Made by a program: the position numbers and the translations under genes
Shown here: one piece after another, positions 44,027 to 46,577 of the stretch
How the letters are laid out: the number at the start of each line of letters is the position of its first letter
Numbering within the stretch: the first letter of the stretch is position 1
Notes under the pieces: model-generated
The model's database searches: none
Told to the model about the DNA's origin: nothing
What the model saw: the letters and a program-made list of their open reading frames with translations, nothing else
Assembly (NCBI GenBank): GCA_013373545.1
Contig: JABXHQ010000057.1
Location: forward strand, 1-49,400
From: Gammaproteobacteria bacterium
GTDB taxonomy: Bacteria > Pseudomonadota > Gammaproteobacteria > Enterobacterales > Kangiellaceae
Direction of reading: 5' to 3'
Length of the DNA stretch: 49,400 nt

Positions 44027-44098
44027 GCCCATTGATTCTTACGACCCTTAGCAACATTTTGCTAAACTCCTGATCCGTAAAAAAGAAATGAGATGACT

Positions 44099-44926
44099 AT
44101 GACAAAAATTGCTGTTAATGCCTGTAATGGACGCATGGGCCAAGCGTTAATGTACGCCATTGAACACACACGCGGGGTCACGCTCACTGCGCCTTTGTTA
44201 CGCAGTGGTCACCAATGGGTAGGCGAGCCTTTAAATCGACAATTTCCCCAACTCAAAAGCGCACAGCCATTAATTGATGATCTGGAGCAAGTGGCGAATG
44301 AAGTAGATGTTGTGATTGACTTTAGTTTGCCGGACTATTCGTTGGCAACCGTAAAGCGCTGTGCCAAGTTGCAGATCCCTGTAGTCATCGGAACAACCGG
44401 CTTTAGTTATCAGCAAAAGCAACAGCTGATTGAGCTGTCCGATCAAATTCCAATGGTGCTCGCGCCGAATATGAGTGTCGGAGTTAACCTCACGCTTAAA
44501 GTTTTAGAGTTAGTCGCCAAGGCCATTGGCCGTGACAGTGACATCGAAATTATTGAGTCTCATCATCGTTTTAAGAAGGATGCGCCTTCGGGTACTGCGC
44601 TGCGCATGGGTGAAGCCATCGCTGATGGCATGGGCAAAGTCTTTAGTGAAGTCGCGGCGTTTGATCGGTGTGGCAAAGACGCCATTCGCCGTGAGGGCAG
44701 TATTGGGTTTTCCGCAATTCGTGCGGGAAACATTGTCGGTGAGCATACTGCGCTGTTTGCCATGAGTGGAGAAGAAGTCGAAATCACTCATAAAGCGCGC
44801 GATCGCCAGACCTTCGCACAAGGTGCTGTACGAGCAGCCATGTGGGCGGCCGAGCAACCTGTGGGTCATTATGACATGAGCGATGTGTTGGGGCTGGATG
44901 CACTCTTTAGTAACGGTTCGTTTTAA
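44099..44926 (+). CDS. dapB: 4-hydroxy-tetrahydrodipicolinate reductase
   Basis: A 275-residue enzyme of the diaminopimelate/lysine pathway that reduces HTPA with NAD(P)H. The catalytic region ESHHRFKKDAPSGTAL is intact, as are IGTTGFS, APNMSVGVN and the C-terminal GHYDMSDVLGL. The N-terminal dinucleotide motif, normally GAxGRMG, here reads ACNGRMG, so the first glycine is alanine. ATG 44099 and ATG 44093 are both possible; GAG upstream favours 44099. No terminator is seen before the non-coding region that follows. Confidence 0.95.
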   Translation: MTKIAVNACNGRMGQALMYAIEHTRGVTLTAPLLRSGHQWVGEPLNRQFPQLKSAQPLIDDLEQVANEVDVVIDFSLPDYSLATVKRCAKLQIPVVIGTTGFSYQQKQQLIELSDQIPMVLAPNMSVGVNLTLKVLELVAKAIGRDSDIEIIESHHRFKKDAPSGTALRMGEAIADGMGKVFSEVAAFDRCGKDAIRREGSIGFSAIRAGNIVGEHTALFAMSGEEVEITHKARDRQTFAQGAVRAAMWAAEQPVGHYDMSDVLGLDALFSNGSF

Positions 44927-44960: not shown

Positions 44961-44978
44961 TGTAAGATATGTCTCAAG
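44961..44978. promoter_or_regulatory. Possible GacA/UvrY box upstream of CsrB-like RNA
   Basis: TGTAAG, six bases, CTCAAG. The left half is perfect for the GacA/UvrY consensus TGTAAG-N6-CTTACA; the right half matches at 4 of 6 positions when C is allowed for Y. Distance to the presumed RNA start is about 120-140 bases, similar to known Gac-controlled RNAs. Suggestive only. Confidence 0.4.
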
Positions 44979-45097: not shown

Positions 45098-45277
45098 AAT
45101 TCGATTTGGTCCCTTGTGAGATTTTTTTCAACGAGTAATCTACTCACATGCGGCAAGGAATGCACAGCTGCAAAGGATACGACCGAGGATGGTCAAGCAA
45201 CACGGATGTGTCAGGGACAATTACTTCAGGATGAAGACAAAGGGATACTAAGGCGACGTAAGTCGCCTTTTCTTTTT
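45098..45277 (+). ncRNA. Candidate CsrA/RsmA-sequestering small RNA (CsrB/RsmY/RsmZ-like)
   Basis: Within the 526-base dapB-carA gap. GGA occurs seven times between 45157 and 45245 (at 45157, 45175, 45187, 45204, 45215, 45229, 45243), mostly as AGGA or GGGA. Several sit in hairpin loops: GACC-GAGGAT-GGTC, ACAC-GGAT-GTGT, CTTC-AGGAT-GAAG, and GCGGC/GCTGC with AAGGA at the loop start. A 5' hairpin pairs TGTGAG with CTCACA (45115-45148). It ends in a strong terminator. This is the hallmark layout of RNAs that titrate CsrA/RsmA. The 5' end is estimated from the AT-rich TACAAT at 45087-45092. An open frame of 105 codons crossing the region has no support. Confidence 0.78.
45250..45277 (+). terminator. 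Intrinsic terminator of the CsrB-like RNA
   Basis: AAGGCGAC, GTAA loop, GTCGCCTT followed by TTCTTTTT. Perfect 8-base stem. It has no protein gene directly upstream, which itself points to a small transcript. Confidence 0.93.
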
Positions 45278-45311
45278 CCCTGGTTAATTTCCCCAATTCT
45301 CGTCTCTTGCA

Positions 45312-45341
45312 TGGACAAGCCAGCCATGGATCGCTTAAAAT
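45312..45341 (+). promoter_or_regulatory. Probable sigma-70-type promoter of carA
   Basis: TGGACA (45312-45317), 18 bases, TAAAAT (45336-45341); each hexamer matches its consensus at 5 of 6 positions. It lies after the terminator of the small RNA and gives a carA leader of roughly 100 bases. Confidence 0.5.
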
Positions 45342-45385
45342 ACACCGATTTTGTCCACAGCGGACAATCTCAGTTTGAATCTTTC

Positions 45386-45423
45386 AAAAAAAGCGGAATC
45401 CAGACTCTTGAATTCCGCTTTTT
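45386..45423 (+). terminator. Terminator-like hairpin in the carA leader
   Basis: AAAAAGCGGAAT, a 12-base loop, ATTCCGCTTTTT. The 12-base stem is perfect and followed by G. It lies about 30 bases before the carA start codon and after the likely promoter, so it could attenuate carAB. An upstream hairpin (TTGTCC-ACAGC-GGACAA, 45351-45367) and TTTGAA-TCT-TTCAAA (45374-45388) could form competing folds. Confidence 0.7.
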
Positions 45424-45452
45424 GTGTATCTAGAGCATTACTGGAGGTCCTT

Positions 45453-46577
45453 TTGAGTCAACCCGCCATCCTCATCCTCGAAGACGGAACCCTATTTAAA
45501 GGAAAAGCCATCGGTGCTGACGGTCTTGCCGTTGGCGAAGTGGTTTTCAACACCGCCATGACGGGTTATCAGGAAATTCTGACCGATCCATCTTACGCCC
45601 AACAAATGGTCACGTTAACTTATCCACATATTGGTAATACTGGAACCAATGAAGAAGACCAAGAGTCCAGTCAAATTTGGGCAACCGGTTTAATCATTCG
45701 TGACTTGCCGTTATTGGCCAGTAACTATCGTAATCAACAGTCATTGTCCGACTATTTAAAGCAACGTAATGTGCTGGGAATTGCAGACATCGACACCCGC
45801 AAGTTGACCCGTATTTTGCGCGAAAAAGGTGCGTTATCCGGCGCTATAATGGCGGGCGACATCGACGAAGAAAAAGCGTTAGCCGCAGCACGTGCATTTC
45901 CTGGCTTGAAAGGCATGGACTTGGCGAAGGAAGTTTCACAAAAGGCTAGCTCGCAATGGACCAGCTCTACTTGGACCATTGAGCAAGGCTATGGTGAGCT
46001 GACTGAAAAGCGTTTTAAAGTGGTGGCATATGACTTTGGCGCCAAGAGTAATATTTTACGAATGTTGGTAGAACGTGGCTGCGAACTCACTGTCGTTCCT
46101 GCGCAAACGCCTGCTGAAGAGGTACTGGCGCTGAATCCTGATGGCGTGTTTTTATCGAACGGCCCGGGTGACCCAGAGCCTTGCGATTATGCCATTGCGG
46201 CGATTCAAACTTTGCTGGAGCGAAATATCCCGACCTTTGGAATTTGTTTGGGTCATCAACTTCTGGCGCTGGCCAGCGGTGCGAAAACAATCAAGATGAA
46301 GTTTGGCCATCACGGTGCCAATCACCCGGTTAAAGACTTGGAACATGACCGAGTGATGATTACTTCGCAAAACCACGGTTTCGCTGTCGACGAAGACAGC
46401 CTTCCTGACAATTTAAAAGCGACTCATGTTTCTTTGTTTGATGGCAGCTTGCAAGGCATACATCGCACTGATAAGCCGGCGTTTGGTTTCCAAGGACATC
46501 CCGAAGCTAGCCCCGGTCCGCACGATGCCGCGCCATTGTTTGACCACTTTGTCGAACTAATGCAGGCCAATCGTTAA
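45453..46577 (+). CDS. carA: Carbamoyl-phosphate synthase small subunit
   Basis: A 374-residue glutamine amidotransferase subunit. N-terminal CPSase domain ([34 protein letters not shown]) and class I amidotransferase domain with nucleophile Cys265 (GICLGHQLL) and [11 protein letters not shown]. It hydrolyses glutamine and passes ammonia to CarB for arginine and pyrimidine synthesis. The start is TTG at 45453 after a GGAGGT site; the frame is open to 45351 but that would include the leader hairpin. Confidence 0.96.

Follow-up and report, generated by a model that had tools for sequence, protein, structure and literature searches.

What does the stretch of DNA between dapB and carA encode in this marine bacterium, and does it belong to carA or stand by itself? 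The sequence analysed, called the window here, is 49,400 nt long and covers positions 1–49,400 (forward strand) of contig JABXHQ010000057.1 from the Gammaproteobacteria bacterium (Kangiellaceae) assembly GCA_013373545.1, a genome that appears to belong to the genus Pleionea and to share a family with Kangiella. A gap of 524 nt separates dapB (44093–44926, + strand; an ORF of 277 aa with Pfam DapB_N and DapB_C above cut-off) from carA (45453–46577, + strand; Pfam CPSase_sm_chain and GATase above cut-off, with a TTG start after GGAGG, by eye). An original prediction had read positions 45098–45277 as a CsrB/RsmY/RsmZ-like RNA. Our analysis of the sequence and of related genomes makes it highly probable that the locus is a stand-alone, non-coding gene of the CsrB/RsmZ type, controlled by UvrY and sequestering CsrA. 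Comparisons within the genus use five genomes, namely the window's own, G001, P. mediterranea DSM 25350 (G002), G003, which is the closest relative, and G004 (MAG HF-Dia21); the Kangiella genomes include G012, G026, and G033.

GGA motifs, terminator, and predicted fold

The seven GGA motifs said to lie in fewer than 90 bases were all placed by script, with starts at 45157, 45175, 45187, 45204, 45215, 45229, and 45243, and span 89 nt (45157–45245). Nowhere else in the window, on either strand, are there at least seven GGA per 100 nt. Dinucleotide shuffles of the whole gap reached this density in 11 of 5000 cases, with a mean maximum of 3.2, while the weaker test of shuffling the predicted 128-nt RNA alone gave seven GGA in 150 of 5000.

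All four palindromes named in the original prediction are present at script-checked coordinates, and all lie on the + strand. Hairpin 1 (GCGGC/GCTGC, 45150–45171) carries a GGA in its loop and appears in the fold, and its stem is possible in G003, in G004 (with G-U pairs), and in P. mediterranea. Hairpin 2 (GACC-GAGGAT-GGTC, 45181–45194) and hairpin 3 (ACAC-GGAT-GTGT, 45200–45211) are read from the sequence, with counterparts CGCC-AGGAC-GGTG in G004 and ACAC-GGAC-GTGT in G003, respectively. Hairpin 4 (CTTC-AGGAT-GAAG, 45224–45236) appears in the fold and differs by at most one base change in all five Pleionea-genus RNAs. The intrinsic terminator (45250–45277, + strand) also checked out, with an eight-pair stem at 45250–45269 followed by a T run. 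Across 20 aligned sequences, both partners change in three of its six predicted pairs, and RNAalifold on the same 3′ module recovered the terminator alone.

Predicted folds are more stable than those of shuffled copies, both for the interval first proposed (z −3.24) and for the predicted RNA (z −2.99). The minimum-energy fold of the RNA (−35.4 kcal/mol) contains hairpins 1 and 4 and merges the region of hairpins 2 and 3 into one helix; the four-hairpin structure first drawn evaluates at −30.4 kcal/mol, 5 weaker than the minimum by the model. The minimum-energy fold of the G003 RNA has hairpins at all four places. Bases of the GGA motifs have a mean predicted unpaired probability of 0.65 versus 0.45 for all bases in the window RNA, individual motifs ranging from 0.30 to 0.99 with some partly paired. 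In each of the 14 RNAs folded they exceed the mean unpaired probability of all bases, a mean that the paired terminator lowers. By these models, several GGA motifs are predicted to sit in hairpin loops or unpaired linkers, as in Csr/Rsm RNAs.

Promoter, upstream repeat, and the CsrA circuit

A candidate −10 element (TAATCT, 45136–45141, + strand) is identical in G003 and has AT-rich equivalents in other relatives, and a candidate −35 (TTGTGA, 45114–45119, + strand) was picked by eye with a 16-nt spacer; a consensus scan missed both. Because the −10 probably lies at 45136, the RNA would start near 45148 and be about 128 nt long. The first ~50 nt of the interval first proposed are, given that start, promoter region, and the sRNA gene is better placed at 45148–45277 (+ strand).

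Farther upstream, the inverted repeat TGTAAGATATGTCTCAAG (44961–44978, + strand) is a predicted activator site of the UvrY/GacA type, and forms an island of conservation amid otherwise diverged sequence in all six aligned upstream regions. Its center lies 166–171 bp from the −10 in all five Pleionea-genus genomes, 146 bp in G009, and 155–158 bp in all ten Kangiella loci, counts for which the −10 elements and the Kangiella repeats were picked by eye, three of the latter scoring 7/12. Relative to the predicted start of the RNA, the repeat is centered near −178; in E. coli, according to the available text of one report, UvrY binds an 18-nt repeat centered at −183/−182 of csrB (PMC4682653).

Against the pattern TGTAAG-N6-CTTACA, TGTAAGATATGTCTCAAG scores 9/12, and eight places in the window score at least 9; the score alone is not rare, and support comes from conservation and position. 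The pattern TGTRAGNNATNTCTCAAR, itself drawn from relatives and in part from this site, occurs once in the 3.6-Mb genome with up to one mismatch, at 44961–44978. The exact repeat of Salmonella csrC, TGTGAGACATTGACCATT, is found in two of the ten Kangiella loci (L024 and L059), slightly upstream of the repeat counted there.

The genome holds the protein partners of such an RNA. A csrA gene, on which the original prediction depended, was found by profile search at 90 bits, with a model that matches 3 of 14 control genomes, and the encoded peptide keeps L4 and R44, which we take to be RNA-contacting residues. Both uvrY (345 bits, curated cut-off 280) and barA (971.6 bits, curated cut-off 890) are present; each model matches 12 of 14 control genomes but exceeds its cut-off in one. 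Judged from sequence, a UvrY/GacA-type regulator and a putative site for it upstream of the RNA thus occur together, as expected of a Csr/Rsm system.

In the circuit we propose, BarA would activate UvrY, and phosphorylated UvrY would bind the inverted repeat ~178 bp upstream and switch on the sigma-70 promoter of the RNA. The ~128-nt transcript would expose some seven GGA motifs, both in the loops of hairpins and in unpaired linkers; CsrA dimers would bind to these and so be kept off their mRNA targets. Transcription, the exact 5′ end, control by UvrY, and sequestration of CsrA are the steps that we infer.

Relation to known Csr/Rsm RNAs and distribution among relatives

No Rfam model matched the window at its gathering threshold, CsrB (RF00018) and RsmY (RF00195) included. 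The best sub-threshold match, and at the relaxed threshold the best of its clan over the RNA, was PrrB/RsmZ (RF00166), with an E-value of 0.0013 over 581 bases and model positions 1–133 matched. A search with these models, proposed as a check, singled out RsmZ, below its cut-off. The RNA resembles RsmZ in size, in its several GGA hairpins, and in its 3′ terminator, but reaches 24.4 bits against a cut-off of 44, and because of this score we do not claim membership of the Rfam family. The sequence CAGGAUG is the CsrB repeat. With CsrB and CsrC of E. coli and Salmonella (RF00018, RF00084) the system shares this loop, the UvrY-type repeat ~180 bp upstream, and the presence of csrA, uvrY, and barA in the genome. 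Unlike CsrB, whose model has 356 positions, the window RNA is shorter, has seven GGA, and has no CsrB match over it among the best-of-clan matches listed.

Over 61 genomes, the RsmZ model gave matches in 38 and none above its cut-off; at E 0.1 it also gave weak matches in 4 of 14 control genomes, so such matches prove nothing alone. Seven of the RsmZ matches that were read (L046, L051, L054, L055, L056, L062, and L066) looked like terminators after coding sequence and were dropped, among them the match on contig C24 of the window's own genome (L051). BLAST of the RNA region against the 61 genomes matched, besides its own genome, three others of the genus at the dapB-carA locus and, in G019, a piece of 28 nt. 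With so few matches, synteny and covariance models were used instead.

A covariance model of the 3′ module (R1) was built from 20 sequences of four genera, the window among them, and scores the window RNA at 66.3 bits. End-to-end alignment of the six Pleionea-genus and G009 RNAs was poor since their lengths differ, and G009 and G005 were excluded from alignment A4. Among 37 genomes of the family, R1 matches 35 with an E-value of 1.8e-8 or lower, missing G020 (0.012) and G023 (no match; 75% complete). It matches 16 of the 18 that, as far as known, played no part in building it, one of which may be K. shandongensis, a contributor through L073. Its best match among 24 genomes outside the family has an E-value of 1.8e-7 (G039); R1 E-values are rough, and weak matches (E up to 0.05) occur in most genomes. 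Of 19 R1 matches in the own genome, those on contigs C95 and C104 were terminator-like and were dropped, and one on C31 was kept.

The dapB-carA gap itself holds a GGA-rich RNA in G001–G004, in G009, and in all ten Kangiella gaps read, so that the conservation proposed as a test, with flanking genes kept, is borne out; in the five Pleionea-genus genomes and the ten Kangiella gaps the repeat lies in the same gap. The carA match has E <1e-130 in 40 of 41 genomes, G043 alone giving a weak match. Both genes were found at 62 named loci; all six gaps of Pleionea/Kangiella type among these contain at least six ANGGA versus one of 56 others (L116, with a gap of 1638 nt), although some of these six come from genomes already counted above. 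The densest 150 nt hold 4–8 ANGGA in these six gaps versus at most three in the others; raw GGA density overlaps, with 5–13 per 150 nt in the family versus 5 in L107 and L116. At a further five loci, in genera g3 and g4, there is an RNA whose 3′ module is related.

Motif number varies among the orthologous RNAs, with 7 GGA in the window, 8 in G003, 7 in G004, 14 in P. mediterranea, and 21 in G001, and beyond the genus with 7 in G009 and 5–6 in eight Kangiella RNAs. The Pleionea-genus RNAs are too variable in length to judge the conservation of motifs versus linkers.

The R1 match on C31 marks a second Csr-like RNA in the window's genome (C31, 44–268), with 12 GGA and a terminator. It is broken by the contig end, and its upstream region, with the repeat TGTGCGAGATTTCTTACA, is on the overlapping end of contig C89. 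Orthologues in G001–G004 have 12–14 GGA. The repeat center is 190–191 bp from the 5′ motif of this sibling RNA in all five genomes, and the P. mediterranea repeat matches 12/12; in G003 the sibling adjoins a tRNA-queuosine mannosyltransferase gene (Pfam). Three Kangiella genomes also have a second Csr-like RNA, unlike this sibling and with hairpins of the CUCAGGAAGAG type (L039:1498–1674, L041:1498–1674, and L058:1444–1623); in L039 it lies just after a glutaminase gene and scores 35.6 bits with Rfam CsrB, below the cut-off of 71. A model of this second Kangiella RNA (R2) found no match in 39 genomes, a set without its three source genomes and hence uninformative. Tandem GGA-rich Csr-like RNAs were seen in L180 (G005:C123) and L181 (G046:C37). 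In G039, from another family, the R1 match (L182, C26:49900–51300) falls between divergent carA and dapB (Pfam DapB_N), a gap with two GGA-rich stretches preceded by the UvrY-like repeats TGTGAGAGATCTCTCAAT and TGTGCGAGATCTCTTACA. Several sibling Csr sRNAs, Pf1–Pf3, are likewise described in the available text on another marine gammaproteobacterium, Pseudoalteromonas fuliginea (PMC9927453, PMC11882849).

Alternative readings and significance

To find an sRNA between dapB and carA is no novelty in itself, since P32 of P. syringae has already been described there, in the available text of PMC4997734, as an sRNA of ~80 nt with a Rho-independent terminator, co-transcribed with carA as its 5′ UTR and ending 45 bp short of the carA start codon. 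The window RNA could, like P32, be part of a cis-acting leader or attenuator of carA instead of a separate CsrA sponge; it is on the carA strand, upstream of carA, and has a terminator, and this precedent slightly lowers our confidence in a separate sRNA. The two are set apart by position and description: P32 adjoins carA while the window RNA ends ~175 bp before it, and the main text of PMC4997734, as available, does not contain "RsmA", "GGA", or "GacA" and does not describe P32 as a CsrA/RsmA ligand. After the terminator of the RNA comes a separate promoter-like site (TGGACA-18-TAAAAT, 45312–45341, + strand; 10/12 to consensus, with similar sequence by eye in the gaps of relatives), which is probably that of carA. 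In other genomes the association with carA is broken, as G005 has its pair of GGA-rich RNAs 4–5 kb from carA, carA points away in G039, and no dapB or carA gene was detected in the 1.5 kb on each side of the five g3/g4 loci. Together these points leave the leader reading improbable.

Just before carA, at 45386–45425, lies another strong hairpin that also carries a T run, and similar hairpins were seen by eye in G001 and in g3 genomes. Occupying the place of P32, it appears by position the likelier counterpart of that RNA, and is possibly a carA attenuator like it.

Some CsrA-binding sRNAs also base-pair with mRNAs, and the window RNA might bind CsrA yet act mainly in such a way and not by titration. 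The Kangiella alignment speaks against this, as linkers vary there while the GGA motifs and the stems of the hairpins are for the most part conserved, and we consider such a role slightly less probable still than the leader. Least credible of all is a small protein gene, the 105-aa ORF at 45116–45433, for although its frame is open across the RNA in the window and in G003, stop codons break all three frames across the RNA in four of six compared sequences (G004, P. mediterranea, G001, and G009) and the distance from −10 to terminator (142, 143, and 137 nt in the window, G003, and G004) does not change in steps of three. The RNA is thus predicted to be non-coding, with its own terminator.

The reading of the locus as a Csr/Rsm-type sRNA gene is therefore the one supported by csrA, barA, and uvrY in the genome, by the conserved GGA-rich RNAs, and by the UvrY/GacA-like repeat at a csrB-like distance. 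These features make an RsmZ- or CsrB-like function very likely. The RNA is new as an instance of a known Csr/Rsm kind to which Rfam is blind at its cut-offs, and we found no earlier report of this RNA in the open-access literature on Kangiella, Pleionea, and dapB-carA.

The kind of regulator is itself unsurprising. Its presence here would extend the BarA/UvrY-CsrA-sRNA circuit to Pleionea and Kangiella, in which the RNA escapes the Rfam models at their cut-offs, and the covariance model together with the conserved locus offers a means of finding such RNAs. More speculatively, and with less than even confidence, this may be a Csr sRNA locus with fixed wiring and neighbors that quickly tunes CsrA titration by gaining and losing GGA-hairpin modules, the dapB/carA neighborhood being an old home of Csr sRNAs that includes G005 and G039. 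The orthologous series of putative sponge RNAs, from 7 to 21 motifs, would in any case provide natural material on how motif number relates to CsrA titration.
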